Below the pieces are notes generated by a model. The model ran no database searches. It saw only the letters and a program-made list of their open reading frames with translations, and had not been told where the DNA came from. Both the position numbers and the translations under genes were made by a program. A DNA stretch of 64,000 bases from Herbiconiux ginsengi (lineage in GTDB: Bacteria > Actinomycetota > Actinomycetes > Actinomycetales > Microbacteriaceae): assembly GCF_900107435.1 (NCBI RefSeq), contig NZ_FNPZ01000002.1, forward strand, positions 760,979-824,978. Reading direction: 5' to 3'. Below, one piece after another: positions 8,219-26,282 of this stretch (within the stretch, counting starts at the first letter, position 1; each line of letters opens with the position of its first letter).

Positions 8219-8233
8219 ACGTATGGTCGAGAC

Positions 8234-10081: not shown

Positions 10082-11173
10082 CTACCCGAACACCCCGTTC
10101 ACGTAATCAAACGTGCGCGAATCGATCGGGCTCGAGAACATGGCCTCGGTGCTGCCGTGCTCCACGATGTGCCCCGGCTGTCCCTGAGCGGCGAGGAAGA
10201 ACGCGCACTGCGTCGACACCCGCTGCGCCTGCTGCATGTTGTGCGTGACGATCACGATGGTGACGTCGTCGACGAGCTCGAGCATCGTCTCCTCGATCAC
10301 GCGGGTCGAGGTGGGGTCGAGCGCCGAGCAGGGCTCGTCCATCAGCAGCACCTTCGGCGTCACGGCGAGCGAGCGGGCGATGCACAAGCGTTGCTGCTGG
10401 CCGCCGGAGAGCCCGCCGCCGGGAGCGCGTAGGCGGTCGCGCACCTCTTTCCAGAGCCCCGCCTTGGTGAGGCAGGTCTCGACGAGGTAGTCGCGGCGGT
10501 CGCGGTCGGCGCGAGTTCCGGTGAGCTTCAGCCCGGCCAGCACGTTGTCGTAGATCGACATCGCCGGGAAGGGGTTGGGTTTCTGGAAGACCATGCCGAT
10601 GTGCTTGCGGGCGTCGACGAGCTTCCGCGACGGGTCGTATATGTCCTCCCCGTCGAGCAGCACCTCGCCGGCGAGGCTCGCCGAGGGGATGAGTTCGTGC
10701 ATCCGGTTCAGGATGCGGAGAAAGGTCGACTTGCCGCATCCCGACGGCCCGATCAGCGAGGTGATGACCCCGGCGGGCATGGTGAGGGAGACCCGGTCGA
10801 GCACCTGATGGTCGCCGAACCAGGCCGAGATGTTCTGGGCGTCGAGCTCCGCGAGCGGCGGCCGGTCGTCGACGGCGAGCAGCTGCTGCTCGAAGCTGCG
10901 CGCCGACTCGGCCCCCGAGACCTGCTGCTGCCCCTGGGGCGTGGCGAGAATCGCGCCGCCGTACTGGTCGGCGTTGGCGTACGGGCGAGCGCCCGGTGCA
11001 CCCGGCGCGAGCGGCATCCCCGAATCCGGATGCGTGGCGACCGTCGGCGGCACCCAGTCGCGCGGACCGGCGCCCTTCATGATGCGCCGCTGCTCCCGCC
11101 GGCTGAGCGGAGGCATGACAGTGGTGATGTCCTCGGCCGTTGGAGCAGGCACGTCGGTGGGGCTGTCGCTCAT
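10082..11173 (-). CDS. pstB: Phosphate-type ABC transporter ATPase PstB with N-terminal extension
   Basis: A 363-aa ATPase of the PstB family. Walker [10 protein letters not shown] is at 142-150, the signature LSGGQQQR at 255-262, Walker B VLLMDEP at 275-281 and the H-loop in [10 protein letters not shown]. PstB proteins are normally about 250-260 aa. Here a 110-residue N-terminal extension, rich in Pro/Ala/Gly with a basic patch ([11 protein letters not shown]), precedes the ATPase. The start at 11173 is preceded by AACGGACAATC, and no closer start fits. It is the last gene of the run and lies 20 bp after the pseudo-sortase, far from its PstC/PstA partners. The transported ligand is inferred, not shown. 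Confidence 0.88.
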
Positions 11174-11193
11174 GATTGTCCGTTCCGCTGTCG

Positions 11194-12177
11194 TCACAGC
11201 ATGTTGGGGAGGAGTCGGGTGACCTGATCGGCGATGAGCAGACCGCCGAGCACCATCACCGGCACGAAGACCACCCACATCTTCTGGGCGCCGATGCGCC
11301 GGTACGACCACACCGCGGCGATCTCGGCGATCACGAAGAACTGCAGCGCGAAGACGAGCGCCCACACCGTGCTGGTGTCGGTGGCGAGTTCGAGCGATTG
11401 CGACGGCAGGGTGCGGAAGCTGCTCTGCCGCGCGCCGGCGGGTTCGGTCTCGGAGACGAGGTGGGCATCCACGCGAGCGACACCCGTGGGGATGAACGCG
11501 GCGCCTCGGGCGGTCTCGAGGATCAGCCGACTCTCGCCCGCGATCGGGCTGGGCGGTGCGAGGTCGCCGGCATAGCGCACCCCGATCACCTCGAACTTCT
11601 GCTCGCCCTGGCCGGTCAGCACGGTGAAGGTCTCGCCGGGCGCGAGTTCCTGGATGCGACTGAACGGCCCACCGTAGGCGGCCGCCCGGCCCATGATGAC
11701 GCTGACGCCCTCCTGACCGGGCAGTACGGTGTCACGCCGATGACCCGGGCCGCTCGTGAGCTCACCGCTCGTGGTGCCCTCCACGACGACCTCGTTGACC
11801 CCGATCGCCGGGATCTGGATCAAGGCCACGGGCGCGCCATCCGGCAGCAGGGTGTCGTCGAACGCGCCTTCACTCACCGGCGCCGTTCCCGCCGAGAGCT
11901 GGGCGCGGAACGCGTCGGTCAGTTGCTGCTGCGCAACGAGGTGCTGCAGGTGGCTGAGCACCATCAGGTTCACCGCGAATGCGAGCAGGACGGCGGCGAC
12001 GAGGGCGAGGCAGCTTCGCAGCAGCAGTTGCGACTGGCTGAGCGGCGCCAGCGGCACCATCGACCGCGGCATGCGCTTGGGCATGCGCGGCGGTTTCGGC
12101 GGTGCCGGTGGAGGAGCAACGGATGCGCCGCCGCCGATGAGTGGCGCGGGCGGTGGCGCCTCCGTCGTGCTGGTCAC
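11194..12177 (-). CDS. Sortase-fold protein lacking catalytic His and Cys (pseudo-sortase)
   Basis: The 327-aa protein has a Pro-rich cytosolic N-terminus, a membrane segment (51-72), a sortase barrel (about 115-243) and two C-terminal membrane segments (about 270-292, 300-320). The barrel keeps sortase landmarks: [17 protein letters not shown]-x-x-DTVLPGQ-G and GGPFSRI-x-ELAPG. However, where active sortases have AGH, this one has MGR (R164), and where they have the L-x-T-C box it has LETARG (A223). Arg235 may match the catalytic Arg. With His and Cys both gone, transpeptidation is not expected. GTG start overlaps the stop of the upstream gene (GTGA), so translation is coupled. A structural or adaptor role beside the DUF916/WxL-like proteins is my inference. 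Confidence 0.78.
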
Positions 12178-12932
12178 GCGGTCGACTCCTGCGTCGCAGC
12201 GGCGCCGACTCCGGCGGGCGCGACGGATGCGCTGCCATCACGCACGATCCTCACGATCACGTACGCGACGCCGGCCACCGCCGCGAGGGCCAGCAGGAAC
12301 CACGGCGGCAGGAACACGAAGGTATCGCGTGTCATCGGCTCGAGGGCGACGCCGTCGACCGTTGCCGGCGGGGTGAGGGTGTAGTGCGCCGTCGCGAAGG
12401 TCCACTGGCCGACACCGGTGAGGGTCGACTGCACGACCACCTTCTCGTTCGGTTTGAGGCCGTTCACGGCTACCCCGTCGACGGAACCGAGTTCATTGCC
12501 GAACGGCCCGGTCACCCAGAATCGCGCAGTGCTGTCGATGATGGAGCTCGACACGTTGCGAACGGTGAACTGCGCGCTGAGCTCACCACCGAGCGGATCG
12601 ATCGACGGTCGGTATTCGGTGTTCAGGCCGGAGACGTAGAGGATGCCCCCGATGCTGTATTCGTCGTCACCGAGCGCGGGGGCCGAGACGGGCCCGCTGG
12701 TGACGGTCGAACCGCCCTCGGTCGTCGTGGTGGTGCGGTTGGGCGTGTTCGCAGCCGGCGAGGGGCTGCTCGTCCCCCCGGAACCCGGCACCACGGTGAC
12801 CTGCAGATTGACACCCGTGGGCGGCACGTCGTCGGCCGCGTACGCGGACGAGCCGGTGCCGAGACCGACGGCGACGAGACCGACGAGCGCGAACGCCCCG
12901 AGACCGGCGGCGAGGATTCTCGACGGGCGCAT
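12174..12932 (-). CDS. Short DUF916-like membrane-anchored surface protein
   Basis: A 252-aa exported protein: signal peptide (1-32, ending SSAYA-AD), a Ser/Thr/Pro linker (about 48-85), one immunoglobulin-like domain and a C-terminal membrane anchor (about 207-230) with a short cytosolic tail. The domain copies the C-terminal half of the neighbouring DUF916 protein: both share the order FTV-x-N, G-x-GQW, a Y-x-x-x-P strand, VD-x-x-AL-x-P, RDT-x-x-F and then the PW-x-LL membrane start. It lacks the N-terminal peptidoglycan-facing domain. Its ATG overlaps the upstream stop by one base (TGATG). Probably arose by partial duplication; function inferred as a surface-complex subunit. Confidence 0.72.
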   Translation of the reverse strand: MRPSRILAAGLGAFALVGLVAVGLGTGSSAYAADDVPPTGVNLQVTVVPGSGGTSSPSPAANTPNRTTTTTEGGSTVTSGPVSAPALGDDEYSIGGILYVSGLNTEYRPSIDPLGGELSAQFTVRNVSSSIIDSTARFWVTGPFGNELGSVDGVAVNGLKPNEKVVVQSTLTGVGQWTFATAHYTLTPPATVDGVALEPMTRDTFVFLPPWFLLALAAVAGVAYVIVRIVRDGSASVAPAGVGAAATQESTA

Positions 12933-14023
12933 CACGAGCCGTTCGAGATCGTCGACCGCTGCTCGGCCTGCTCGCGCGCTTTGCGACGGGCCTCCGCCTC
13001 GGTGTAGGCGATCCAGTCCCGCGCGGTCTTCTCGTCGCGTGCCCGACGGAGACGGATGAAGAAATAGACGCCGGCGACGATGACCAGCAGCACCAGCAGC
13101 AGCCAGGGCACCGCGAAGGTGATGGTGTCGCGGCTGACGGTCGGCAGCGGCCCCGGGTCGAGCGCCTCCTCGTCGACGGTGGGCTGCATCATGACGTACG
13201 GATTCAGGTAGCCCCACTGCCCGGTGCCGGGCACCGTCATCGTGATGGTGCGGGTGCTGCCCGGAAGCATCTCCGACAGCTCCTGGCGCACCTGGGCCGC
13301 GACCCCGATGCCGAGGTAGGTGTTCACACCGGCCAGCATGTTCGCGCCGAGCGCGACGTTGCCGGTGTTCTGCACCGTGAAGGTGATGGTGGTCTTGCCG
13401 TCGAGCGGGTTCAGTTCGCCGTGGTAGTCGGCGGCGATGCTCGAGATGGTGAGGGCCGGCTGGAGGTCGCCGGGAACCCGCACGTAGACCCGGGTAGCCA
13501 CGCGGCGGTCGACCAGGATCTGCCCTTCGGCGCCGGTGACCGAGATCACGATTCCCGCCGCGTGGTCGCCGGGAGCGGCGTCGGCCGGAACGTTCAGGGT
13601 GAACGGCACCACCTGGGATGCACCGGGGTCGAGCGGGATGTCCAGCTGCGTCGCCCCGCCGTCGAACGTGAGCCAGGTGCCCGCGTCGGTCGGAACGACA
13701 CCCGTGTCGAGAAGACCGTACGAGCCGTCTTCGGTGTTGTAGGCGTCGGTGGCGAACACCTTCATGGTCTTGGGTGTCGTGCCGGTGTTGCGCACGATGT
13801 AGTTGTCGGTGAGCTGCTGGCCCGGGGCCGCCTGGTAGCTGAAGCGGCTCCGGCCGTCGGCCGATGTCTCGGTGGAGGGTGCACCCGAGATGCCGTCGGT
13901 GTCGTCCGCCTGAGCGGAGGCGGCGGGCGAGGCCGCGAGCAGGCCGCCGGTGAGGGCTGCGGCGATCAGGGCGACGGCGACGACACGTCGAGACAGACGA
14001 TCCAGAGCGGGGATGAGAGGCAC
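12932..14023 (-). CDS. DUF916 (WxL-interacting-type) surface protein
   Basis: A 363-aa protein with signal peptide (1-38, ASA-QA), two immunoglobulin-like domains (about 55-165 and 170-290), a membrane anchor (about 308-330) and a basic coiled cytosolic tail rich in Arg/Glu. The first domain has the DUF916 pattern (FSYQAAPGQQLTDNYIVRNTG, then DPGASQVVPFTLNVP and GDHAAGIVIS). In Firmicutes DUF916 proteins bind WxL-domain proteins and peptidoglycan. GTG start at 14023; the RBS is weak, and the next gene upstream is separated by a strong terminator, so it may be expressed at a lower level. Confidence 0.8.
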   Translation of the reverse strand: MPLIPALDRLSRRVVAVALIAAALTGGLLAASPAASAQADDTDGISGAPSTETSADGRSRFSYQAAPGQQLTDNYIVRNTGTTPKTMKVFATDAYNTEDGSYGLLDTGVVPTDAGTWLTFDGGATQLDIPLDPGASQVVPFTLNVPADAAPGDHAAGIVISVTGAEGQILVDRRVATRVYVRVPGDLQPALTISSIAADYHGELNPLDGKTTITFTVQNTGNVALGANMLAGVNTYLGIGVAAQVRQELSEMLPGSTRTITMTVPGTGQWGYLNPYVMMQPTVDEEALDPGPLPTVSRDTITFAVPWLLLVLLVIVAGVYFFIRLRRARDEKTARDWIAYTEAEARRKAREQAEQRSTISNGS

Positions 14024-14115
14024 AGTTGATTTATCCAGGAGGAGTTGGCGAAGCGGCAGCAGGGAGATGAAGGAGGTGTGAACGAGGAGGTTCGGATCGA
14101 GACATCCGGCACCCC

Positions 14116-14148
14116 AAAAAGGGGGGCCGCGCGGCTGCGCGACCCCCC
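14116..14148 (-). terminator. Strong terminator inside the envelope gene run
   Basis: On the minus strand a 12-bp stem (GGGGGGTCGCGC / GCGCGGCCCCCC, one G-U pair, AGCC loop) is followed by TTTTTGGGG, 8 nt after the stop of the WxL-like gene. It divides the gene run into an upstream part (transporter, binding proteins, WxL-like) and a downstream part (DUF916 proteins, pseudo-sortase, PstB), and could set their ratio by partial read-through. Confidence 0.85.
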
Positions 14149-14156
14149 TCTCGGTG

Positions 14157-15233
14157 CTACTTCGAGGTCAGCGTGAGCGTGAGCTTCGAGTTGTAGGTAC
14201 CGGCCGGCATGTTCGCGGGGGCCACGAACGTGAGGGCGGCGTTGAACTTCGACTCCGGCACCGCGCTCGTGTTGCCCGCCTGGGCGAACACAGCCCCGGT
14301 TCCCCCGTAGTTCGCCGAACCAGCGACCTGCGGGTTGGCGAGCGTGACGAGCGGGTTCAGCGTGAAGTTCGCGGCGGCTGCCGGAGCGAGACCGAGCTGC
14401 GTGTTCGCGATGACCTTGGAAGCGTCAGAAGCGTTCACGAACGGGTCGACCTTGGTGGTCACGGTCCAGCCCGGGTGCGAGACGACGCGGGTGTCCTGCA
14501 CGGTGAACTCGCCGAGGGTACCGGTGGAGGTCGAGAGGCCGCCGACGATGGTCGGGTTCTCGATCTTGGCGGTGCCGACGGTGGGAGCGACCAGGTTGAG
14601 CGTGCCGTCGACGGCGCCGATGGTGGTGGCCTGGAGGTTGATCTCGGCCGAACCGACCGGAGGCTGCTCCGGCACGGTGGTGCTCGGAACCGCGAACTCC
14701 CAGGTCGGGTCGGCGCCGCCGGTGCCCGGGGTGACGGTGATGTTGGTGAAGTACGCACCATCGGCCGACACGTTCAGGTAGTTGTTCTTCATGAACGCGA
14801 AGCCGACCGAGAAGTTGCCACCGGCCTTGACCGCGGTGAGCGACCCGTTGATGTTGTCGTCCAGACGCATCGAGGGGTAGCTGACGTTCTTCGTGCCCTG
14901 GATGAAGTCGTTGGGCGCGTAGGCGAGCCAGGCGCTCGGGTTGGTCTCCTGACCGCGGGGCGAGATGAAGGTCTCCACCCCGGTCGAGTCGTTCGACCCG
15001 ACGAACACGGCCGCGAGGTCGGTGTCGCTGGCGCGGGCGATGACGGCCTGGCTGAACGGCACCGGCGTGGTGACCGGCCAGAGCGAGCCGTCGTTGGCGT
15101 CGGCGATGTAGAGCGGGCCCTTGGAGCCCGTGGTGGGGTCGACCGCGGCGTTGGCCGCGCCGGCCGAGACGGCGATGATCGTGCCGGCGACGACGCCGAC
15201 CATCGCGACGCGGAGAGCGTTCTTCTTGAACAT
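14157..15233 (-). CDS. WxL-like secreted surface protein
   Basis: A 358-aa exported protein with signal peptide (1-29, ANA-AV) and no membrane anchor. The C-terminal part resembles the WxL domain: FTVQDTRV (243-250), then GWTVTTKVDPF (255-265) at the place of the first W-x-L/V motif, and a final AGTYNSKLTLTLTSK strand where WxL proteins end in a TLTWTL-type strand. The second Trp is replaced by Leu. WxL domains attach proteins non-covalently to the cell wall and pair with DUF916 proteins, two of which are the next genes. A strong terminator follows. Confidence is moderate because the similarity is by pattern only. Confidence 0.65.
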   Translation of the reverse strand: MFKKNALRVAMVGVVAGTIIAVSAGAANAAVDPTTGSKGPLYIADANDGSLWPVTTPVPFSQAVIARASDTDLAAVFVGSNDSTGVETFISPRGQETNPSAWLAYAPNDFIQGTKNVSYPSMRLDDNINGSLTAVKAGGNFSVGFAFMKNNYLNVSADGAYFTNITVTPGTGGADPTWEFAVPSTTVPEQPPVGSAEINLQATTIGAVDGTLNLVAPTVGTAKIENPTIVGGLSTSTGTLGEFTVQDTRVVSHPGWTVTTKVDPFVNASDASKVIANTQLGLAPAAAANFTLNPLVTLANPQVAGSANYGGTGAVFAQAGNTSAVPESKFNAALTFVAPANMPAGTYNSKLTLTLTSK

Positions 15234-15265
15234 GTGGTTACGATCCGTTTCTGGTTTTCTCAGCG

Positions 15266-16372
15266 CTACAGGGTGGTGTATGCGCGAATGGGGGTTGCGG
15301 AGGAGGGGGCCAGGAAGCCGAACTTGCGCTTCACGGCGCCGGCGGTGCTGGCGAAGGTTCCGGTGTTGGTGAGGCTGGTCGCGTTGGCCGGGTTGAGCAG
15401 GGCGGCGAGCTTGGGGTCGTAGGCCGGGTCGCTCGAGTTGACTCGCTTGTACTCGACCACCAGGTAGGTGTCGCGGCCGAAGCTCGAGGCGTAGAACGCG
15501 TCGCTCGGAACGAGCGCGTTGCCGGTGCCGGTGTATGCAGCGTTGCCGTTGGGCGCACCGAGCTTGACGTTGGCGTTGGTGATGGTGTTGAGGCCGGTGG
15601 CGCCGTTCGACTGGGCGATCCAGCTGGCGGCCGAGAACGGGATGATCTCGTCGGCGGCGAGCACGCTCGCGTCGTTCTCCGGGGTGGTGCCGTTGGCATC
15701 GGTCACGGTCGAGCCGAGGGTGGTGACACCGATTGCGCTCAGGAAGAAGTTGCGGGTGCCCGAGCCGCTCTGCGGGATGCGCGGCTTGACCGTGGTGCTG
15801 CCGATGACGACGGGAGTGCTCGACTCGTAGATCTGCTTGAGCTGAGCGGTGGTCAGCGCGGCGAGGTCGGAGTTGGAGCCGTTGTAGGCGTACGCCACGG
15901 CGTCACGGGCGTAGGGCACGTAGGAGAGCAGACCGGCCGAGTTCGCGTTCGAACCGGGGCCGCTGGACGAGCGGGCGATGTCGATCTGACCGGTGACGAC
16001 GCGTGCCGGAACGTTGGCGGGGTTGGGGTTGGGAGTGTAGGGGTTGCCGGTGATCGAGGCGCGCAGCGCGGTCACGCCCGCGCCGGAGCCGGCGGGGCGG
16101 CCGAAGTAGGCGCCGTTGGGCTTGGTCTGGATGACCGACGAGCCGAACGCGTCGTAGTTGCCAAGGGTGGCGCCGGCAGCGGTGGTGCGCACGACCGAAC
16201 CGCTGACGTTGGTGCCGTTGGTCAGAGCGTTGATGGAGTCTTGCAGCGTGTCGGAACCGACCAGCACGTAGCTGTTCGAGACCGGCTCGGCGTTGGCCGG
16301 AGCGGCCAACGCGACGCCTGCGAGCGCGACGCCCAGGGCTGCGCCGAGGGCGACTACCTTCTTGATCTTCAC
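15266..16372 (-). CDS. PstS-like exported binding protein (PBP-like fold)
   Basis: A 368-aa secreted protein with signal peptide (1-28, ANA-EP). It resembles periplasmic phosphate-binding-like proteins (PBP_like_2): the opening YVLVGSDTLQDSINAL, IDIARSSSGPG, the AYAYNGSNSDLAALTTAQLKQIYE segment and SGSGTRNFFLSAIG near residue 205, the place where PstS proteins bind an oxyanion with SGT. It has no lipobox or membrane anchor, so it may be released or held by the neighbouring anchored proteins. GTG start preceded by AAAGGATC. It lies 32 bp before the WxL-like gene, so the two are probably co-expressed. Confidence 0.75.
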   Translation of the reverse strand: MKIKKVVALGAALGVALAGVALAAPANAEPVSNSYVLVGSDTLQDSINALTNGTNVSGSVVRTTAAGATLGNYDAFGSSVIQTKPNGAYFGRPAGSGAGVTALRASITGNPYTPNPNPANVPARVVTGQIDIARSSSGPGSNANSAGLLSYVPYARDAVAYAYNGSNSDLAALTTAQLKQIYESSTPVVIGSTTVKPRIPQSGSGTRNFFLSAIGVTTLGSTVTDANGTTPENDASVLAADEIIPFSAASWIAQSNGATGLNTITNANVKLGAPNGNAAYTGTGNALVPSDAFYASSFGRDTYLVVEYKRVNSSDPAYDPKLAALLNPANATSLTNTGTFASTAGAVKRKFGFLAPSSATPIRAYTTL

Positions 16373-16484
16373 GGGAGAGTGATCCTTTCAGGATGTGATT
16401 CCGAGCGTCCGCGGCGCGGCTGCTTCGACTTGGTGCACCGGCGGGGATCTGCCCCGGCGTTGACGGGTCCAAGAATGTGGGGCA

Positions 16485-19034
16485 TCAGAGTCGTCTCCTG
16501 ATGCGGGTGATGAACGGCACGGCGACCGCCGCGAGGAGCCCGGCGAGGATCGCCAGGGGCACGGCACCCGAGATGGCACCGAGCTTCTGATCGGCCGGGG
16601 TCGGCTTGCCGACGAGAGCCGCCGCGGCTCCCCCGGATGCGGACGGGTCGGACACCGGCGCACTCACCGGCGGCGCAGGCGCGGCGGGCACCGGCGGCGC
16701 CGTCACCGTTCGCGGCGTGGTCGCGGCGGGCTTGGCCGGAGTGGTCGGGGGCGTCGTCGACTTGCCGGAGGCGATCACGGCGGCTGCCGAGACGGCCTGG
16801 TCGCTCCACCCTTGCGGAATCGGCGCGTAGCCCGCCGGGAGCTGGCCGAACCCGGTGCCGGGTTCCTGACCGGCGGTGGCGGCGTAGATGATGAAGTTCG
16901 CGTAGTCGGCCCGAAGGGCCGCATCGCTCATCTCCTTGTTCACGGCCGCGTACACCGGAACAGCGAGCGGGTAGGCGTTCTCTGCAGCCTTCGCCTGATC
17001 GGAGCCCGGATCGAATCGATAGACCTGCGACTGGGTGGGGTCGACGGTCATGGCGGCAGCGGCGGCGGCGAGCGAGGTGTCGTCGGGGGCCACGAACTTT
17101 CCGGCGGGATTGCGCAGCTTCGCCTCGAACACCTGGTACTTCGCCGCGGCGCCGGTGTCGGTCAGCCCGATCACCCGCTGCAGACCGGTGAGGCTACGAC
17201 TGGTCTTGGTGTATTTCGGCGGCGCCGCCACCGGGTCCCACGCGCCGAGCACCTGCCCGTCGCCGCGGAGCACCAGATAGGCGCTCGTGGAGAGGTCGTT
17301 GGTGTACGGGCGCCACGTCACGGAGTTGACCGAGGCCGCGCCGTCGGCCGCAACCGGCTGCTCGGTCGGATCGGCCTTCGGGAAGTCGTCTCGAGGGAAG
17401 GTGAGCGGGGCGCCGACTCCGCCCGAGACGGCGTTGTAGACATCCGGGTTGAGCGAACTCCACGGATTGACGGTCATCTTCCAGGGGTCGGGTACGCCGG
17501 AGAGGAAGTCGACGGCATCCTGATCGCTCATCACGTACGACCAGAGCGCCCACGCGGCATCCGAGCGGCCCTGCGGTGCGATCAGATCCGAGAGCGACGG
17601 GGCGTTGATCGACTGATACGCCCATTCTTCGTCGTTGATCGCGAGAAAATCGGGGTCGTAGGTGATGTTGCGCGGGTTGTGTCCGGCGTCGGCCGGGCCT
17701 TTGTAGCCGAGATGCTCCTTCGATGCGCCGGTCGGCAACGAGTCGAGGTAGGAGCTGGTGAGCAGTTTCGCCACGAGGCGAGGCGTGAGGTTCATCGACG
17801 AAAAAGGGAGCCTCGCCCGCGCCTTGGCGTCGTCGGGCACCTCTCCCAGGGCGTTCGGCTCCCGGTCGATGGCGAACGCGACCGAGATGCCGGTCAACGC
17901 GATCGGAGCGTAGGTGAGTTTGTCGGTGACGTCGGGCGTCGAGAGCGCGCGAGATGTCAGCGCGAGAGGCGCCGCCGTGGTGCCGTTCGCCGCGAGCGCG
18001 GCATCCGATTCCGCTCCCGTGATCGTGCTGTAAACCGCGCCGCCCTTGGCGCCGCACAACGTGGGCTGCCACGACGCGATGGCCACCGAGGCGAGCTCGC
18101 TGCCCGAGAGCTGGCGCTCTTTGGCGCCGATGGTGCAGCGGGCTCCATCGGGCAGGAAGTCGAGCTTCACCGCGAGGCGGTGCTTCCAGTTGTCCCAGAG
18201 CAACCCCGACTTGAGCACGTCGTTCTCACCCACGTCGGCTGTGCCGCGGGGAATGATGACGAGCCAGCAGGATGCCCCGGTGATGACGTTGCCGGCACCG
18301 GTGACGGGGGCCCCGCAGCCGAGGCCCGACGCCTGGGTGGCGGTCTGCACCTCGAACTTCACGGAGCCTTCGCCGTTGGATCCGGAGCCCGCCCACGACA
18401 CCTCGTTGGAGGTGAGCCGGGTGAAGAAGGGGTTCGTGTTGACGTCGACGTCGACCTTCTTGCCGTCGACCACCGAGGCGATGGTGACTCCGGTCTTCGA
18501 CTTGAACGGGATCGAGGTGTACGTGGGGTTGATGAAGTCCGAGCCGTAGGCGGTGTACTTCACGTCTTGCTCCGCGACGTTCTTGTCGTCGCTGATGGTG
18601 GAGTCGCGGGTGGCGCCGGGGGTGTTGAAGCCGCCGTACTGGCACGTGGTGCGATCCGGCTGACCCGGGTTCTCGGGGTCGTCGCCCCAGCACTGCATGA
18701 TCTGCAGGAAGTTCTTGCCGCCGGTCTGTCCGCTCGGCACCTCCGACTTCACACCGCCGGTCCAGCTGACCTCGATTCCCTGCGCGAGCAGGTCGCGCGT
18801 CTGGGAGACGGTCACGCTGAGGTCGGGCATGGGTGCCGACTCGAGGTCGAGGTCCTGCTGATTGGCCGAGACGGTGACGACGGACGAGTCGGCCGCGAGA
18901 GCGGGCGTTCCCGGATCGGTCACACCCGTGAGCACGAGCAGTGAGCCCACGGAGAGTCCCGTGACCGCTCCGACGGCCAACGAGACCAACCACTGACGCC
19001 GGGGTTTCCGGCGATGGCGGGCGGCACGAGACAC
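16485..19034 (-). CDS. Large PstS-like, membrane-anchored surface protein
   Basis: An 849-aa protein: basic N-terminus (RRKPRRQW) and signal segment (about 15-45), a long extracellular region, a Pro/Ala/Thr linker (about 735-815) and a C-terminal membrane anchor (about 822-843) ending RIRRRL. Scattered motifs recall substrate-binding proteins (SVAFAIDREPNALGE; PYTNDLSTSAYLVL; YPLAVPVYAAVNKEMSDAALRADYANFIIYAATAGQEPG), and the end resembles PstS tails. I prefer the GTG at 19034, which has GGAG at 6-nt spacing, over the TTG at 19082. At least eight Cys occur in the extracellular part. No exact family recognised; it lies between anchored PstS and the smaller binding protein. Confidence 0.7.
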   Translation of the reverse strand: MSRAARHRRKPRRQWLVSLAVGAVTGLSVGSLLVLTGVTDPGTPALAADSSVVTVSANQQDLDLESAPMPDLSVTVSQTRDLLAQGIEVSWTGGVKSEVPSGQTGGKNFLQIMQCWGDDPENPGQPDRTTCQYGGFNTPGATRDSTISDDKNVAEQDVKYTAYGSDFINPTYTSIPFKSKTGVTIASVVDGKKVDVDVNTNPFFTRLTSNEVSWAGSGSNGEGSVKFEVQTATQASGLGCGAPVTGAGNVITGASCWLVIIPRGTADVGENDVLKSGLLWDNWKHRLAVKLDFLPDGARCTIGAKERQLSGSELASVAIASWQPTLCGAKGGAVYSTITGAESDAALAANGTTAAPLALTSRALSTPDVTDKLTYAPIALTGISVAFAIDREPNALGEVPDDAKARARLPFSSMNLTPRLVAKLLTSSYLDSLPTGASKEHLGYKGPADAGHNPRNITYDPDFLAINDEEWAYQSINAPSLSDLIAPQGRSDAAWALWSYVMSDQDAVDFLSGVPDPWKMTVNPWSSLNPDVYNAVSGGVGAPLTFPRDDFPKADPTEQPVAADGAASVNSVTWRPYTNDLSTSAYLVLRGDGQVLGAWDPVAAPPKYTKTSRSLTGLQRVIGLTDTGAAAKYQVFEAKLRNPAGKFVAPDDTSLAAAAAAMTVDPTQSQVYRFDPGSDQAKAAENAYPLAVPVYAAVNKEMSDAALRADYANFIIYAATAGQEPGTGFGQLPAGYAPIPQGWSDQAVSAAAVIASGKSTTPPTTPAKPAATTPRTVTAPPVPAAPAPPVSAPVSDPSASGGAAAALVGKPTPADQKLGAISGAVPLAILAGLLAAVAVPFITRIRRRL

Positions 19035-19188: not shown

Positions 19189-20817
19189 TCAGGAACCGCC
19201 GCCGCCGCGCTTCAGGCGTCGAGAGGCGAGCGGAGGCACGATCACGGCGGCGAGCAGTAGCACTCCGGCGGCCACCATCAGCCACTGCTGCGGCCCCATC
19301 CCCGGGTCGGGGAGGGTGAACGGACTCGACACAGCCGCGCCTGCCACCGCCGAGCCACCGGAGACGAGTGCCCCGTTCTCGTCGTAGACAGCGGCCCCAC
19401 CAGAGCCCCCGGATGCGGCTGCCGCTCCGGCTCCGGCACCAGTGCCGGCGCCGGCAGCGGAAGCGCCCGCGTCGGCAGCTGCGCCACCGGGCGCGGCTCC
19501 GGTCGGATCGGTGTTCTCGGTGGCGCCGCCGGTGCCGGTGGTGCACTGCGAGCCCGATCCCTTCTTGTCGCAGTCCGCCGGCTGCGGCGCCGTGATGGCC
19601 AGCTGGTTGTTGTTCGGCGAGTCACCCGGGCTGAAGGTCGGGTTGTTGCACGAGTTCTCGTCGATACCGGTCGCCCCCGCGCCCGGGATTCGACTGATCT
19701 GCGTCGACCCGGCCAGCACCAGGTTCATGGGCAGTGGCGAGTAGCCGAGCGTGTCGGCCTGCTGTTGACCCTCACAGAGCATGTAGCGCGCGAACGCACC
19801 GAGCGTCTTCCCCTTCTCCTCGGTGAAGATGCCCGCGACCTGAGTGGGAACGATCATGTAGGAGTAGCTCGACAGCGGATACGACCGAGGGTCGCCGTTG
19901 TTGTACACGTTGTCGAGAATCTGGGTGAGATAGTCCGGCGAACTCGGGTTCTCGTCGATCTGGGCTTGCATCAGGGCAACGGCCACGGATGTCGCACGCG
20001 GCTCGACGTAGTAGCCCGCGCTGTTCAGCACCTTGGCCACCGGGAAGCCGGAGTTCTTGGCGTAGGAGTACTCCACGTAGGTGATGGCGCCCTCACCGTA
20101 GCCCTGAGCGACATAGCCTGCGACGCCGAGCGAGCCGTTCTGCGACTTCATGGCCGCCGTTGCGGGGTATTGCGAGGTGAGGCCGGTGCGTCCGGAGAAG
20201 GACGACCACAGGTCGGGGTACTGCTTCGACATCCAGAGGGTGAACTGCGCCGTCGATCCCGAGCCGTCGGAGCGCACCACCGGAACGATCGACTGGTCGG
20301 GCATCGCGAGGCCGGGATTGTCGTCCTGCACGGCCGGGTCGTTCCACTTCGTGATGATGCCGGTGAAGATCTTCGTGATGACGTCGCCCGAGAGGCGCAG
20401 ATTCGTCACCCGCTTGCCGTTGATCTTGAGGTTGTACATGAACGAGGTTCCACCGGCCACGATGGGCATGTAGGCGTAACCCGTCTTCGGAACCTCGGGG
20501 GGTGACCCGTCTTCCGGATTCGGCTGGAACGGGATCTCACTGACCGCGAAGTCGACAGTGCCGTTGATGAAGTCCTGACGGCCCGCCGACGAACCGACGC
20601 CGGAGTAGTTCACGACCATGCCGTAGTTCGCTGCCACGTTCTTACGCCACTGGTCGAGAGCGTTCTGCGACCAGGTGGAGCCGGTGCCCGAGATCTTCTC
20701 GTAGATGTCCGCCGCCTGGGCGGGCGCGGCGGCGATTGTTCCGGTGGCGACGACCGCGAGCAAGGCGGTGGCCAGCAACATGAGCACGGCGCGGGCCGCA
20801 CGGATCTTCGGCGTCAC
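19189..20817 (-). CDS. pstS: Phosphate-binding protein PstS, membrane-anchored form
   Basis: A 542-aa PstS-type protein. After a signal peptide (1-40, QAADI) comes the canonical start ISGTGSTWSQNALDQW, NYSGVGSSAGRQDFI, VDFAVSEIPF, TGIITKWNDPAV and the anion-binding VVRSDGSGSTAQFTLW. In place of a lipobox anchor it has an Ala/Gly-rich linker (about 430-500) and a C-terminal membrane helix (QQWLMVAAGVLLLAAVIVPP) with a basic tail, so it is tethered from its C-terminus. GTG start overlaps the pstA stop (GTGA). Four Cys in the C-terminal part may form disulfides. The ligand is most likely phosphate, but this locus may use the scaffold differently. Confidence 0.85.
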   Translation of the reverse strand: MTPKIRAARAVLMLLATALLAVVATGTIAAAPAQAADIYEKISGTGSTWSQNALDQWRKNVAANYGMVVNYSGVGSSAGRQDFINGTVDFAVSEIPFQPNPEDGSPPEVPKTGYAYMPIVAGGTSFMYNLKINGKRVTNLRLSGDVITKIFTGIITKWNDPAVQDDNPGLAMPDQSIVPVVRSDGSGSTAQFTLWMSKQYPDLWSSFSGRTGLTSQYPATAAMKSQNGSLGVAGYVAQGYGEGAITYVEYSYAKNSGFPVAKVLNSAGYYVEPRATSVAVALMQAQIDENPSSPDYLTQILDNVYNNGDPRSYPLSSYSYMIVPTQVAGIFTEEKGKTLGAFARYMLCEGQQQADTLGYSPLPMNLVLAGSTQISRIPGAGATGIDENSCNNPTFSPGDSPNNNQLAITAPQPADCDKKGSGSQCTTGTGGATENTDPTGAAPGGAAADAGASAAGAGTGAGAGAAAASGGSGGAAVYDENGALVSGGSAVAGAAVSSPFTLPDPGMGPQQWLMVAAGVLLLAAVIVPPLASRRLKRGGGGS

Positions 20818-22178
20818 AGGGAGGTCTCCTCGGGGTCGGAGGGCTTCGGGGCGGTGGAGACGATGTTCTGCGTCGCGCGTGCGGGCGGGTAGTCCCCCGC
20901 GTAGATCCGGTCGTCGAGCATCGTGATGCGCTGCAGGTCGCGCAGCGATTCTGCCTGGGCGTTGCGGCGTTGGCGGTCGGAGAGCTGGCCTGGGCCACGG
21001 CCCCCGATCACGCGGGCGACGATGAACAGGCCGAGCACGAGCAGGATGAGCACCGCCGCGGTGCCGAAGCCGCGAGCGATCATCGTGGGCTCGGGCGAGC
21101 GCACGAAATCGAACACCTGCAACGGCAGCGAGATCATCGGCCCCTCGAAGGGGTTGACGTTCATCACCGCGGTGATGCCCGAGGTGAGCAGCACGGGAGA
21201 GGTCTCGCCGATACCGCGGGCGGTGCCCAGGATGACGGCCGTGACCAGACCCGACCGCGCCGTCGGCAGCACGACGTGCCAGACGGTTCGCCATCGCGTG
21301 GTGCCGAGGGCGTAGGAGGCCTCGCGCAGGTTTCCCGGCACGAGCCGCAGCACCACGTCAGAGGCACGGATCACGATGGGCAGCATCATCACCGTGATCG
21401 CGAGCGCCGCCGCGAATCCCGAGCGCTGATGCGTGAACAGCTGGATGATCGCCGCGTACACGAAGAGACCGGCGACGATCGACGGCAAGGCGGTCATGGC
21501 ATCCGCAATGGTGCGCACGAAGCGGGCGAAGCGTCCGCCCACCTCGTTGAGGAAGACGGCCGTAGCGATGCCGAGCGGCACGGTGATGGCGAGTGCGATC
21601 GAGATCTGGATCAGCGTGCCCACGATCGCGTGCAGGATCCCGCCCGACGAAAGGGGGTCGAGAGGTCCGGTGAGCTCCATCGTCTGGGTGAAGAAGTTGA
21701 CGTACGGCAGCGCTTCCGACCCGCGAATGAGCGTGTAGACGACGATGAAGACGAGGGCGCCGAACAGCATCACTCCGGCGCTCACCATGAGCACGGTCGC
21801 GACGCGATCCTTCACCTCCTGGAAGTCGGACCGCATCGACACGAGCAGCATGTAGAACCCGATGAAGGCCAGGTACGCGACGACGAACCATCCGACGACG
21901 CCCGTCAGCGGGCTGATCCAGCCGAAGAGCAGGGTGGCCAGGGCCATGCCGCCGGCGAGCGAGCCGACGATGTTGAACCGTTCGTCGAGGGTCGCCGAGC
22001 GCACCCCTCGGCGCGGGCCGATCTCGACGCCCTCCGATGACGGGATGCGCGTGGGCGCTTCGCCGCCGAAGTCGGCCTCGTACTCGTCGGTCTCGAAATC
22101 GGCGGCGACGACCGCGGTGACGGCATCGGGCCCGCCGGGGGCGGAGGCGGAACCGGGCGCTTCGTAGGTGGTGGTCAT
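20814..22178 (-). CDS. pstA: ABC transporter permease PstA
   Basis: A 454-aa permease, longer than typical PstA (about 280-300 aa). About 70 acidic cytosolic residues come first, then two or three extra membrane segments (about 70-150), then the PstA core with the EAA-type loop LREASYALGTTRWRTVWHVVLPTARSGLVTAVILG and GIGETSPVLLT. The C-terminal 65 residues are hydrophilic (DRQRRNAQAESLRDLQRI). It begins 4 bp after pstC and overlaps pstS, so the three are translated as one unit. Confidence 0.88.
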   Translation of the reverse strand: MTTTYEAPGSASAPGGPDAVTAVVAADFETDEYEADFGGEAPTRIPSSEGVEIGPRRGVRSATLDERFNIVGSLAGGMALATLLFGWISPLTGVVGWFVVAYLAFIGFYMLLVSMRSDFQEVKDRVATVLMVSAGVMLFGALVFIVVYTLIRGSEALPYVNFFTQTMELTGPLDPLSSGGILHAIVGTLIQISIALAITVPLGIATAVFLNEVGGRFARFVRTIADAMTALPSIVAGLFVYAAIIQLFTHQRSGFAAALAITVMMLPIVIRASDVVLRLVPGNLREASYALGTTRWRTVWHVVLPTARSGLVTAVILGTARGIGETSPVLLTSGITAVMNVNPFEGPMISLPLQVFDFVRSPEPTMIARGFGTAAVLILLVLGLFIVARVIGGRGPGQLSDRQRRNAQAESLRDLQRITMLDDRIYAGDYPPARATQNIVSTAPKPSDPEETSL

Positions 22179-22182
22179 CGGG

Positions 22183-23262
22183 TCACAGGCTCTCTGCGCC
22201 GGAACGCGACCGAGCCACGATCGACGACGCGGTGAAGTTCACGACGAGGGTGATGAGGAAGAGCACGAGGCCCGCGGCCATCAGGGCCGAGAGGCCGAAC
22301 TCGCTGGCCTCGCCGTAGCGCAGGGCGATCAGGGCCGAGACCGAGTTCGTGCCGGTCTTCAGCACCTGCCAGTTGATGCTGAACAGCGGCGAGATGATCA
22401 TGTAGACCGCGATCGTCTCGCCGAGCGCCCGGCCGAGACCGAGCATGGTGCCGCCGATGATGCCGCCGCGGCCGAAGGGCAGCACGACCGTGGCGATCAT
22501 GCCCCACCGCGTCGCTCCCAGCGCGAATGCGCCCTCGCGTTCACCGATCGGCGCCTGCGAGAAGGCCTCGCGCATGACGGATGCCTGTGTCGGCACCACC
22601 ATGAGACCCACGACGATGCCGGCGATGAACGCGCTCGAGGTGAAGGCGCTGGCTTCGGTGAGTCGCGCGCCGTCATCGCCCGTGACGGCGAAGAAGGGGA
22701 TCCAGCCGAAGTAGGTCGAGATCCATTCGGCCACCGGCACGATCGCCGCCTGCAGGAAGAACACTCCCCAGAGGCCGAAGACGATGCTGGGCACCGCGGC
22801 CATCAGGTCGACCAGCGACACCAGGAACGAGCGCACTCGCCCGCGCACGACCTCGGAGAGCAGGAGGGCGGTTCCGAGCGCGAGCGGAAAGCCCACGCAG
22901 AGGGCGATGATGGCGATGGTGACCGTGCCGAAGAGCACGGCAGCGATACCGAAGTGCCCCGTCTCAGGCGACCATTCCTGGGTGAAGAGGAACGAGATCC
23001 CGGCGACCTGCAAGGCCGAGCCGGCACGGATCGAGAGAAACAGACCCACCGCGAGCATGATGCCGACCGTGGTCGCGCCGGCCGCGAACGCGACGGTCTG
23101 GAAGACGGTGTCGGAGCGGGAACGACGCGACTGGAGGGAACGCTTGCGCGGGGCATCCGTGCCGCCGTCGCCCCCGTCGCCTCCGACCGGGGCGAGCAGT
23201 TCTGTGCGCTCGTTCTCCAGGAAGACGTCGTCGATCGTCTGAAAGACGTCCTTCTCGGTCAC
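22183..23262 (-). CDS. pstC: ABC transporter permease PstC
   Basis: A 359-aa permease with a 55-residue hydrophilic N-terminus (including a Gly/Asp run) and the PstC core: GTVTIAIIALCVGFPLALGTALLLSE, DLMAAVPSIVFGLWGVFF, and the cytoplasmic EAA loop EGAFALGATRWGMIATVVLPFGRGGIIGG followed by GRALGETIAVYMI. Six or seven membrane segments. It is 108 bp downstream of the PASTA kinase gene in the same direction. That gap shows no clear PHO-box or promoter to my eye. Confidence 0.9.
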   Translation of the reverse strand: MTEKDVFQTIDDVFLENERTELLAPVGGDGGDGGTDAPRKRSLQSRRSRSDTVFQTVAFAAGATTVGIMLAVGLFLSIRAGSALQVAGISFLFTQEWSPETGHFGIAAVLFGTVTIAIIALCVGFPLALGTALLLSEVVRGRVRSFLVSLVDLMAAVPSIVFGLWGVFFLQAAIVPVAEWISTYFGWIPFFAVTGDDGARLTEASAFTSSAFIAGIVVGLMVVPTQASVMREAFSQAPIGEREGAFALGATRWGMIATVVLPFGRGGIIGGTMLGLGRALGETIAVYMIISPLFSINWQVLKTGTNSVSALIALRYGEASEFGLSALMAAGLVLFLITLVVNFTASSIVARSRSGAESL

Positions 23263-23370
23263 GGGCCACCCACCATGGGCCTGATGTTCGGCGCGGCAGG
23301 TGAACGGCCGGGGGTGTGCTGCTGAAGGGGCCGTAGCCGCGGCGTGGAGAGACGGGCGCGGCAGGCCGGC

Positions 23371-25263
23371 TCACCCCTCGCTCGGGGGGCGCGGTGGGGC
23401 GGTGGAGGTGGGATCGGGCGTGGCGGTGGAGGTCGGGGTGGATGTCGGAGTGCTCGTAGGGGTGCCGGCCGGAGGCCGGGGCGCGGCGACAACGACGCTC
23501 ACCGTGGTGCCCAGACGCGCCACGGTGCCGTCGGACGGTGAGCTGCCGAGCACGGTGCCGGGCGCGGCATCGTCGGCGCGGGTGGTGACGAGGGTCTCGA
23601 ATCCAGCGCTGCGCAGGGTGGCTACCGCGTCGTTCTGCGCCGATCCGGCAACGCGCGGAACCACGTTCGATCCGGACGCCACGACCAGGTTCACCGTGCC
23701 CCCTGCCGCGAGCTCGCTGCCGCTGACGGGGTCGGCCGCGAGCACGGTCTCGGCGGCCAGGGCCGAATTCTCCGGGGTGACGACGCCGACGATCAGGCCC
23801 GCTGCGGCGAGCACGTCGCGGGCGGCCGAGAGCGAGCCGGCGGCGAGTTCGGGAACGCGCACGAGAGGTGCCGCGGAGGTCTGCGGCACTGGCGGCGCGG
23901 AGGTGGCAGGGGCCGAGACCGGCGGCGGATCGGCCGACTCGGGCCCAGCGGCCTGGGTCGGCGGCGGGGTGGTGCCGGAGGCGAGGGCCCAGGCCACGAC
24001 CACGACGCTCGCGGCGAGCCCGAGGATCATCCAGAGCCCGAAGCGGCCTCGGGGGGCTGCCGATGCGCCAACTACCGGTGACCCGGAGCGCAGCACTGCC
24101 GGCCCGTCGGGTGCTCCCGCTCCGCTGTACGCGAGCGAAACGGGGCGGACACCCGCCCGGCGTGTCGACGCGTCGGCCGGCGCTACGGCACTCGTGCGTT
24201 CACGGCTACGGGCGCCGGCGCGCGACAACACGATGGTCTTCGCATCGGCTGCACTCCCGGACCGCGGTGACGGGTCACCATCGGCGGACAGGCCGACACG
24301 GGCATCCGCACCCGCCGGGGGCGACGACGCACCGAGGTGGCGGGCCGCGGTGCGCACGGCGAGCTGCATCTCGTCGGCGCTCTCGAACCGCAGACCGGGG
24401 TCTTTCAGGAGGGCGCGCACCACGATGCGATCCACCGCGCGCGGTGTTCCGTGGCGCGCCACCGACGGCACCGGCGGAGGCGCCTGGACGTGAGCGAGCA
24501 TCACGGCGCGGGGATCGTCGCGCACGAACGGCGGATGACCGACGAGAGCGAAGTACAGCATGGCACCGAGTTGGTAGATGTCACCGCGTTCGTCGACCGG
24601 GTCGCCACGGGCTTGTTCGGGCGAGAGGAAGTTCACGTTGCCGAGCACGCCGCCGGTGGGGGTGTCGGCGGTGCCTGCCCCGGTGACAGATGCCGGAGCA
24701 GGGGTGCGAAGCACATCGGTTCCGACAGCGGCGCGACCCGCGGCGTCCGCGAGCCCGAAGTCGACCAGACGCACGCCCGAGGGGCGCAGGAGGCCCCGCG
24801 GATCGCGAGCCACCATGACATTCGCGGGGGACACATCACGGTGGATGAGCCCGGCAGCGTGCGCGTAGGCCAGGGCCGAGAGCACTCCATCGGCCACGGC
24901 GAGGGCGTCGCCGAACGTGAGCGGGCCCTCGCGATCGACGAGTTCGGCGAGGCTCGTGCCGAGCGCGTGTTCGAGCGCGATCCAGGCCAGGGGGTCGCTG
25001 CCGTATTCGTGCACGCCCACGCCCCGCACGGCGACGATGTTCGGGTGCCGCAGCACCTCGGCCGCTCGCGCCTCGGCGAAGAACGCATCACGCGCGGCAT
25101 CGGATCGCGAGAGGTGCGGATGCAGCACCTTCAGCGCGATGGTCTCCCCCGTTTCGACGTCCAGCGCCTGATACACCGATGCCGACCCGCCCGATCCGAG
25201 CAGCCCGCCGAGCCGGAAGCGCCCCGAGACCAGACCGTCGTTCGCGTGCTCGTCGTCGGTCAT
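23371..25263 (-). CDS. Ser/Thr protein kinase with PASTA repeats (PknB-like)
   Basis: A 630-aa membrane kinase. The kinase domain (about 16-285) has the Gly loop GSGGSASV (23-30), ATP Lys (ALK, K45), HRD (141-143), DFG (168-170) and an LGNVNFLSPEQA activation segment. A juxtamembrane Ser/Arg-rich stretch and a membrane helix (about 405-425) lead to a Pro-rich outer linker and two PASTA repeats (about 465-610), then a Pro/Thr tail. PASTA domains sense peptidoglycan fragments and control cell-wall growth. Its ATG overlaps the stop of the lytic transglycosylase gene (ATGA), so an enzyme that makes such fragments is translationally coupled to the sensor. Confidence 0.92.
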   Translation of the reverse strand: MTDDEHANDGLVSGRFRLGGLLGSGGSASVYQALDVETGETIALKVLHPHLSRSDAARDAFFAEARAAEVLRHPNIVAVRGVGVHEYGSDPLAWIALEHALGTSLAELVDREGPLTFGDALAVADGVLSALAYAHAAGLIHRDVSPANVMVARDPRGLLRPSGVRLVDFGLADAAGRAAVGTDVLRTPAPASVTGAGTADTPTGGVLGNVNFLSPEQARGDPVDERGDIYQLGAMLYFALVGHPPFVRDDPRAVMLAHVQAPPPVPSVARHGTPRAVDRIVVRALLKDPGLRFESADEMQLAVRTAARHLGASSPPAGADARVGLSADGDPSPRSGSAADAKTIVLSRAGARSRERTSAVAPADASTRRAGVRPVSLAYSGAGAPDGPAVLRSGSPVVGASAAPRGRFGLWMILGLAASVVVVAWALASGTTPPPTQAAGPESADPPPVSAPATSAPPVPQTSAAPLVRVPELAAGSLSAARDVLAAAGLIVGVVTPENSALAAETVLAADPVSGSELAAGGTVNLVVASGSNVVPRVAGSAQNDAVATLRSAGFETLVTTRADDAAPGTVLGSSPSDGTVARLGTTVSVVVAAPRPPAGTPTSTPTSTPTSTATPDPTSTAPPRPPSEG

Positions 25264-26282
25264 CCACCGGCCCCCGAGGTCTCGGAGACCGCGGCGGCCT
25301 GCGCGGCGTACTGGTTCGCGGTGGCGGCGACGGAGTCGACGTAGCTCTCCACGTGGTTGTAGGCGAAGACGGCGGTGCGCCAGGTGCCGGCGTCTCCGAG
25401 ATCGCCGTAGTGGCAGAGGTAGCGGGCGGCGGCGAGGCTCGCGTCGTCGATCTGCTGCGGATCGGCCACGCCGTCCCCGCTGCCGTCGGCGCCCCAGGTC
25501 TGCCAGGTCGACGGGATGAACTGCATCGGGCCCACCGCGCGATCGCCATCCGGGTCGCCGTCGAGGGTCCCGGCATCCGTGTCGTCGATCGCGTCGAATT
25601 CGCCGCCGTCGAGAGCGGGGCCCAGGATGCGCGGGGTCGTCACGCCGTCATTCGGGCCGCCCACGCCGATCGCCGAGCCCCCGTGGGTGCCATGGCCGGA
25701 CTCGATCCAGCCGAGTGCGGCGATCGTGTTCCAGCCCACGGAGCACGTGGGTTGTTCGCGCTGCAGGGAGAGTGCGGCACCGGCGTAGCCGATGAGGGCT
25801 CGCTGCGGGATGCCGGTCGCCTGGGCGACACCGGCGGCCCAGACCGGGTCGACTGCGGCAAGCGCGGGGGTGACGGAGGGGGTGCCGGGGTTCGCCGAAG
25901 GGCCCGAGGTGCCCGTCGCGCCCGGGCCGCCGGTCTCGCCCGGGCCGCCCGTCCCGCCCGTCCCGCCCGGGCCGCCCGGGCCGCCCGGGCCGCCCGTCGC
26001 GCCCAGGCCTCCCGTCGCGCCCGTCCCGTCCTGTGCGCCGGTCCCGTTCGGGCCGCCCGCCCCGCCGGTCCCGGATGCGGCGTCGGCGTCGCTCGATCCC
26101 CGGGCACCGGCGCCGGTGCCGCCGCCGGGCACGAGCGGCGCGGCGACGGTTTCGCCCGTGCCTGACCAGGCATCCGCTCCCGCCCGCGGCTCGGCCGCCG
26201 CGCTCACGGCACCGACCAGCAGCCAGCACGCGAGTACCACCAGTGCGGAGATCAGGAGTCCGGAACCCACGCGGGCAGTCAT
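25260..26282 (-). CDS. Secreted lytic transglycosylase with Gly-rich linker
   Basis: A 340-aa exported enzyme: signal segment (1-30), a low-complexity linker of G-G-x and G-x-x triplets (about 60-125, rich in Gly/Pro/Thr), and a C-terminal lytic transglycosylase domain. The likely catalytic Glu is in GWIESGHG; further landmarks are AVGPMQFIPSTWQTWG, a DGSGDGVADPQ calcium-like loop and AARYLC. It cleaves peptidoglycan glycan strands. It is the first gene of the minus-strand run and is coupled by 4-bp overlap to the PASTA kinase. ATG at 26282; the frame extends further upstream but not as a plausible protein. Confidence 0.85.
   Translation of the reverse strand: MTARVGSGLLISALVVLACWLLVGAVSAAAEPRAGADAWSGTGETVAAPLVPGGGTGAGARGSSDADAASGTGGAGGPNGTGAQDGTGATGGLGATGGPGGPGGPGGTGGTGGPGETGGPGATGTSGPSANPGTPSVTPALAAVDPVWAAGVAQATGIPQRALIGYAGAALSLQREQPTCSVGWNTIAALGWIESGHGTHGGSAIGVGGPNDGVTTPRILGPALDGGEFDAIDDTDAGTLDGDPDGDRAVGPMQFIPSTWQTWGADGSGDGVADPQQIDDASLAAARYLCHYGDLGDAGTWRTAVFAYNHVESYVDSVAATANQYAAQAAAVSETSGAGG

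Follow-up and report, generated by a model that had tools for sequence, protein, structure and literature searches.

A conserved gene cluster of Herbiconiux ginsengi that combines a Pst-type transporter with WxL/DUF916-type surface genes and a pseudo-sortase

How nutrients pass through the thick wall of a Gram-positive bacterium to an ATP-binding cassette (ABC) importer without a periplasm is, to our knowledge, poorly understood. A gene cluster in a 64,000-nucleotide (nt) stretch of the actinobacterium Herbiconiux ginsengi (contig NZ_FNPZ01000002.1 of assembly GCF_900107435.1, positions 760,979 to 824,978; the window) raises this question, as genes for a Pst-type ABC transporter lie there among genes for surface proteins of the WxL and DUF916 types. 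Do these genes form one system, and what would such a system handle? The set of about ten genes is a real, conserved combination of two known kinds of machinery. Judged from sequence, it encodes, with moderate probability, an accessory, PhoP-controlled Pst-type phosphate importer with membrane- and wall-held receptors.

Conservation of the gene set

The minus strand carries all twelve genes, from the transglycosylase start at 26282 down to the PstB stop at 10082. They are transcribed in the order transglycosylase, PASTA kinase, PstC, PstA, PstS1, PstS2L, PstS3, WxL, D916a, D916b, SrtL, and PstB (Table 1). The open reading frame (ORF) coordinates bear out the positions and the head-to-tail order given in an earlier, sequence-only reading of the window.

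GTDB contigs were scanned with the large receptor-like protein PstS2L, and the best 80 of 375 relatives were kept, several of which look like near-identical pairs. They belong mostly to Microbacteriaceae (Microbacterium, Cryobacterium, Leifsonia, Agromyces, Subtercola, Frigoribacterium, and others) and in part to Propionibacteriaceae (Propionicicella, Propionicimonas, and metagenome-assembled genomes). Six-frame profile searches were run on the strand of the match only, and 61 loci offered room for the test (>5.2 kb before and >8.5 kb after the match), while 19 were dropped. PstC, PstA, PstS1, PstS3, WxL, SrtL, and PstB are found in 61/61 loci, PstS2L being present by construction. Of the two D916 genes, D916a was called in 58 loci, D916b in 56, and at least one in 60. 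The full set of ten core genes was called in 54 of the 61. Gene order is strictly colinear in 52 loci; the remaining nine have an additional gene, either PstS1-WxL behind PstB or WxL placed between the two D916 genes.

The sequence-only reading had taken the Pst and surface genes for one unit, a claim that was checked by asking whether relatives hold them in unrelated places. It withstands this check in all 61 loci with room. That a Pst operon and unrelated surface genes came to lie together by chance is refuted by the same test and has a negligible probability, as the same genes lie on the same strand in every locus and share their presence pattern within the genus. A WxL homolog occurs in 7/16 Herbiconiux genomes, and PstC of the cluster type (85-93% identity) in exactly the same seven. 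A second PstC, 39-42% identical, is present in 16/16; in H. ginsengi it sits in a plain pstS-pstC-pstA-pstB set. At the family level, the PstS2L profile matches 65 of 249 genomes at E≤1e-3, 55 of them strongly (E≤1e-48), and at the order level 8 of 99 genomes at E≤1e-10, spread over four families.

Eleven further loci of the family (L139-L149) were examined. WxL and D916a are kept in L142, L145, L146, and L147; L149 resembles the divergent cluster L053 described below. L143 gave no cluster gene with the ORF filter, which also missed PstS1 in L140, L141, and L147, PstC in L140 and L148, and SrtL in L147 and L149. Five type-B clusters (L139, L140, L141, L144, L148) contain neither a WxL nor a DUF916 gene by profiles and carry a long PstS3 (693-817 residues as called). 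Ig-like Big_3_5 repeats were found on this PstS3 in L141, L144, and L148, three of the four tested (with L139). Because these variants lack WxL/DUF916 but have a long or Ig-repeat PstS3, WxL/DUF916 seems to be an exchangeable surface module, and PstC-PstA-PstS1-PstS2L-PstS3-SrtL-PstB seems to be the steadiest core.

The divergent Pst-like cluster occurs in the H. ginsengi genome (L053:58-15695, G000:C11) and in one relative (L054, G010:C41), with PstC 61% identical. Its gene order is shuffled, it includes an Ig-repeat membrane protein and a pseudo-sortase, and it adjoins transglycosylase and PASTA kinase genes.

Pump, receptors, and wall-type proteins

PstC and PstA both exceed the curated NCBIfam cut-offs (TIGR02138, TIGR00974). 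PstC, aligned with E. coli PstC (9k3s), retains the GLGRALGET segment, and PstA is alignable with E. coli PstA. Both retain channel segments with conserved Arg/Glu residues, which we take to serve transport, and the permease segments look transport-competent by this comparison.

PstS1 lies above the cut-off of the PstS family (TIGR00975), whereas PstS2L and PstS3 match PstS models in part only; the TIGR00975 match of PstS2L is confined to the C-terminal part (3e-10). PstS2L has the two-lobe PstS fold. In alignment with E. coli and other PstS proteins, the Arg, Asp, and Ser of the RSDGSG loop are retained in PstS1, and most PstS1 sequences have this loop. Membrane helices and signal stretches were predicted by hydropathy, which gives a signal-like N-terminus and one C-terminal helix in PstS1, PstS2L, D916a, and D916b, and an N-terminal hydrophobic signal-like stretch with no further helix in PstS3 and WxL. 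A lipoprotein anchor of PstS is usual in Gram-positive bacteria. The canonical PstS of the genome does have a lipobox, whereas the pattern is absent from the cluster PstS1 (0/72), in which a C-terminal membrane helix (66/72) is predicted to replace it. PstS2L contains six cysteines (119, 135, 244, 260, 304, and 331 in the 853-residue form). Across 62 sequences, four of these are invariant and the other two almost so. Five of them precede the PstS part, and disulfides in the N-terminal part are possible.

The window WxL protein matches no Pfam family at E≤1. The commonest family among 50 aligned members is PF13731 (11/50 at E≤1, best 6.5e-7). In the first Trp-x-Leu motif, the W256 and L258 columns are each at least 90% conserved in the 50 members, and the window reads WTV. 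A second WxL motif is expected near the C-terminus; here it has no Trp, the consensus of the 50 members ending LTLTL. The model of residues 190-358 is a beta sandwich.

D916a and D916b had both been called DUF916-type, which stands for D916a only. PF06030 is found in 48/48 aligned D916a members, window included (E≤0.1, best 8.4e-13), the window protein itself reaching 23.7 bits, below the cut-off of 27.3. D916b aligns with D916a columns 186-326, that is, the C-terminal half with the membrane helix, and PF06030 is found in 0/36 members at E≤0.1. The C-terminal membrane helix is predicted in 67/75 D916a and 47/47 D916b. DUF3324 (PF11797) is not among the 25 listed of 38 families for D916a, nor among the 11 for D916b. 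A check on the DUF916 and WxL folds gives a divided answer, with DUF916 recognized by sequence profile and the WxL beta sandwich finding no telling structural match.

SrtL had been read as a sortase fold without active site, and the alignment agrees: the catalytic His and Cys are both absent in 69/69 SrtL, window included. The His position, fixed to within one residue by alignment to PDB sortases, holds Gly/Ala or, one residue further, Arg; the Cys position holds Ala (66) or Ser (3). PDB sortase matches to SrtL end ahead of the Cys. SrtL resembles class E sortases (NF033747) over the initial portion of the sortase domain (9.8e-14; 51.7 bits, below the cut-off of 160), and it differs from them by the missing His/Cys and two extra C-terminal membrane helices. 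Nine pseudo-sortases from variant clusters likewise lack the catalytic residues by eye.

By their domain matches, fusions link phosphate-binding or phosphate-releasing domains with a WxL-type end. In seven Microbacterium loci (L074, L075, L098, L107, L112, L122, L123), the gene after PstB encodes PstS1 fused to a C-terminal WxL domain; one of three fusions tested matches PF13731, weakly (L075, E 0.011). A stand-alone PstS1-WxL fusion of a Herbiconiux relative (L020:6164-7933) has a PBP_like_2 domain and a WxL match at E 1.3e-16.

The only other PF06030 locus of the H. ginsengi genome (L003:10450-13621, G000:C2) encodes a PF06030 protein of 32.2 bits, above cut-off. Upstream of it lies a purple-acid-phosphatase/metallophosphoesterase protein of 664 residues, whose C-terminal part is recognized by the WxL profile of this work (1e-29) and not by PF13731; the protein preceding it looks HupE-like.

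Putative phosphate control and gene layout

The cluster appears to be under phosphate control via PhoP. The search motif was the Streptomyces PHO-box repeat GTTCACCnnnnGTTCACC, fixed beforehand, with 14 scored positions, and the upstream 200 nt were scanned at ≤3 mismatches. The counts leave out five loci duplicating Herbiconiux contigs, profile coverage <0.8, and upstream regions <150 nt, and they retain near-identical locus pairs. PHO-box-like sites lie upstream of D916a in 35/71 cases, of PstS2L in 31/82, and of PstC in 15/65, whereas 1.2-1.6% of dinucleotide shuffles of these regions reach this threshold (0 to 1.9% over all tested upstream regions). They are few upstream of PstS1 (1/67), PstS3 (1/67), D916b (1/45), SrtL (3/64), and PstB (2/81), and absent upstream of PstA (0/65), WxL (0/71), the kinase (0/57), and the transglycosylase (0/26). 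Half of the D916a sites at ≤4 mismatches (24 of 48) share one position, exactly 60 nt ahead of the profile-chosen start.

As a positive control, the repeat was found at ≤2 mismatches in the canonical pst stretch of 14/15 genus genomes scanned (none in L043 of G014; the scan left out G010 and counted a site wherever it fell in the stretch). Within a 14-kb stretch, the canonical pst genes of H. ginsengi have a single site at ≤3 mismatches; it precedes pstS and shows 2 mismatches. Taken alone, the window would be little proof, because four sites at ≤3 mismatches occur across 24 kb on both strands. Among eight variant clusters checked, sites lie by PstC in L141 (perfect), L144, L145, and L146, the L145 site falling inside the start of the called PstC ORF, and by PstS2L and D916a in L147. 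L139, L142, and L148 have no site at ≤3 mismatches (PstC upstream not covered in L148). Together with the PstS1-WxL fusions, the PHO-box-like sites support a phosphate-capture role tied to wall-type domains.

The PASTA kinase and the transglycosylase had been proposed as coordinated parts of the system, a proposal that finds no support. The kinase is within range in at least 51 of the 61 loci, 46 times upstream and 5 times downstream of the cluster; this is a lower bound, as a separate labelling shows a kinase in some loci missed by the profile count. Both labellings find none in six loci (L063, L066, L088, L090, L131, L134), and the type-B clusters contain none. The transglycosylase is within range in 11/61 related loci. 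With no PHO-box-like site before either gene, the kinase, though frequent, and the transglycosylase look like neighbours rather than parts.

These observations bear on a second explanation, in which the ABC part would signal to the PASTA kinase as a phosphate-sensing and surface-remodelling complex that deploys surface proteins on starvation and imports little. The frequency of the kinase and a weak, pilin-like resemblance of the WxL beta sandwich speak for it. The absence of PHO-box-like sites before the kinase, the six loci and five type-B clusters without one, and permease segments that look fit for transport make such a complex quite improbable.

The cluster is probably not one single transcript, because a strong hairpin with T's follows the WxL gene and, in relatives, three separate genes have PHO-box-like sites ahead of them. 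This speaks against the initial assumption of one operon. The assumption that many genes are coupled by overlaps is only partly correct: 4 of 11 junctions overlap by 1-4 bp, while six have gaps of 20-133 nt and one a gap of 4 nt. The hairpin after WxL came from folding energy and is absent from the pattern-scan listing of terminators; matches such as the hairpin on the PstB side are no commoner in the region than in shuffled sequence.

Table 1. Genes and sequence elements of the cluster, in order of transcription (window positions; aa, amino acids)
Feature	Position	Strand	Support
Putative lytic transglycosylase, 340 aa, accessory neighbour	25260..26282	-	PF13406 E 9.8e-6
Ser/Thr kinase with PASTA domains, 630 aa, accessory neighbour	23371..25263	-	PF00069 6e-31, PF03793 5.7e-16
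PstC permease, 359 aa	22183..23262	-	TIGR02138 239.8 bits, cut-off 196.45
PstA permease, 454 aa, N-terminal extension	20814..22178	-	TIGR00974 224.0 bits, cut-off 193.45
PstS1 receptor, 542 aa, signal-like stretch and predicted C-terminal membrane helix 513-531	19189..20817	-	TIGR00975 230.5 bits, cut-off 205
PstS2L, 865 aa, N-terminal beta-rich part, PstS fold with changed pocket, linker, C-terminal helix	16485..19082	-	
PstS3, PstS-like, 368 aa, probably secreted	15266..16372	-	TIGR02136 3.1e-5, weak
WxL-like protein, 358 aa, probably secreted	14157..15233	-	PF13731 in 11/50 aligned members
Terminator-like hairpin and T-run, 3' of WxL gene	14116..14148	-	-37.6 kcal/mol, z -4.12 (14105-14156)
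PHO-box-like direct repeat, first base 60 nt before D916a start	14062..14083	-	3/14 mismatches
D916a, WxLIP-type, DUF916 (PGBD) and C-terminal membrane helix, 363 aa	12932..14023	-	PF06030 5.3e-5
D916b, membrane-anchored homolog of D916a C-terminal half, 252 aa	12174..12932	-	hhalign 99.7%, E 4e-26
SrtL, class-E-like pseudo-sortase, 1 N-terminal and 2 C-terminal membrane helices, 327 aa	11194..12177	-	PF04203 1.4e-11
PstB ATPase, 363 aa, N-terminal extension	10082..11173	-	PF00005 9.4e-33; TIGR00972 4e-98
Terminator-like hairpin 3' of PstB	10023..10053	-	14 pairs then TTTTT

Between PstB and an M4 (thermolysin-type) peptidase gene (8144-9358, plus strand) lie about 2.6 tandem copies of a 90-base unit (9727-9960), whose 25-base core is present there in three copies and, at ≤3 mismatches, has no further occurrence in the window. 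A further neighbour on the minus strand (5740-8235) encodes an Ada-AlkA-methyltransferase fusion of DNA alkylation repair. ORFs with starts resembling those of the two neighbours lie beside several Herbiconiux cluster copies.

Proposed function and known systems

In the explanation that we favour to a moderate degree, the cluster would encode a second, accessory Pst importer that is induced through binding of PhoP under phosphate scarcity. PstS1 and PstS2L would be held in the membrane by their C-terminal helices and PstS3 would be secreted, none of them being a lipoprotein. The WxL protein would sit in the peptidoglycan, held by the WxLIP-type membrane proteins D916a and D916b. The receptors would thereby be displayed through the wall beside the PstC-PstA-PstB pump, to which they would hand over phosphate, and SrtL may serve as a non-catalytic membrane scaffold or adaptor.

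Several findings weigh against this importer. PstB has TIGR00972 as its best family and reaches 327.7 bits, 15.5 short of the cut-off of 343.2. One of the 61 loci, L095, has neither D916 gene by these profiles, the five type-B clusters do without WxL and DUF916 altogether, and L139 among them shows neither an Ig repeat match nor a PHO-box-like site. On the side of control, sites at ≤3 mismatches also turn up before 29 of 371 other ORFs used for comparison, a rate well beyond that of shuffles, and on the reverse strand upstream of PstS1 in 8/67 cases (0-2 reverse matches for other genes). Within the window, D916a alone reaches this threshold; PstC has a perfect half-site and PstS2L a site with 4 mismatches.

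The remaining objections concern the binding pockets. In the window PstS1, Glu aligns with Asp56 and Trp with Phe11, two of the phosphate-binding residues of E. coli PstS. Glu replaces Asp at this phosphate-proton site in 58 of the 64 PstS1 sequences, out of 74, in which the motif could be read; one of the six Asp cases is a canonical PstS within the set. PstS2L has no acid at the equivalent position in 62/62 sequences (R 45, L 7, K 4, Y 3, Q 2, F 1) and carries conserved SE, SR, and GRSD motifs of its own. Because of the Glu in most PstS1 and the missing acid in PstS2L, the ligand of the receptors may be other than plain phosphate. The cluster could then import or sense another oxyanion or a phosphate ester, and PhoP control would follow from the ligand being a phosphorus source. 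A canonical-type PstC already present in all 16 genus genomes and the phosphatase with a WxL-type end in the same genome would fit such a role. We nevertheless regard it as rather unlikely, since PstS1, PstC, and PstA exceed their Pst-family cut-offs, PstS1 keeps the Arg/Asp/Ser of the RSDGSG loop, and the pocket register of PstS2L depends on a weak global profile alignment.

A bolder proposal, to which only a low probability is given, is a wall-spanning capture machine composed of a WxL/WxLIP scaffold, three PstS-type receptors (one with a pocket re-tooled for another phosphorus compound), a pseudo-sortase adaptor, and a dedicated ABC pump. If true, such a machine, passing the ligand from the outer wall to the pump, would be a Gram-positive answer to the periplasm. 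The accessory phosphate importer would extend WxL/DUF916, known mainly from Firmicutes and discussed there for surface binding, to transport in Actinobacteria, and would suggest a probable scaffold function for a conserved inactive sortase. With receptors, wall-type domains, and pump genetically tied in many genera and apparently under phosphate control, the question of wall passage becomes directly testable.

Pst, WxL, and WxLIP are each known, and their joining is undescribed as far as searched. The sequence-only reading knew of no described system of this kind, which agrees with the literature covered (subscription papers lying outside its scope): the one paper found to name WxL and PstS together uses pstS as a typing gene. 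The main text of PMC10599100 holds no mention of phosphate, ABC transporter, sortase, or Actinobacteria, and that of PMC9772566 none of phosphate. WxL, sortase, and "Microbacteri-" are likewise unmentioned in the accessible part of a review of actinobacterial phosphate transport (PMC7866108).

Besides class E sortases, the nearest parallels lie in three systems. We know of no WxL, DUF916, or sortase-like parts in the pst region of Mycobacterium tuberculosis. This region with pknD (PMC7761784) shares with the cluster several PstS and a Ser/Thr kinase gene beside the Pst genes. The WxL clusters of Firmicutes comprise small WxL, large WxL, and WxLIP proteins (DUF916-DUF3324-transmembrane), the last proposed as WxL binders by Hassan et al. 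2023 (PMC10599100, in part), and >91% of 938 WxL sequences are reported to come from Firmicutes (PMC9772566, in part). The likeness consists in a WxL-type protein adjoining a DUF916 protein with a C-terminal membrane helix, whereas the present cluster is actinobacterial, its WxL domain is very divergent, DUF3324 is unrecognized, and the genes are tied to an ABC importer. The third system is the canonical actinobacterial PstSCAB (PMC7866108, in part), with homologous PstC, PstA, PstB, and PstS1 and a PHO-box type of control; the copy in the same genome shares 40% PstC identity with the cluster. The cluster differs from it by three receptor-like proteins, by C-terminal membrane helices where a lipobox would be expected, by the terminal position of pstB, and by the WxL, DUF916-type, and pseudo-sortase genes that it encloses.

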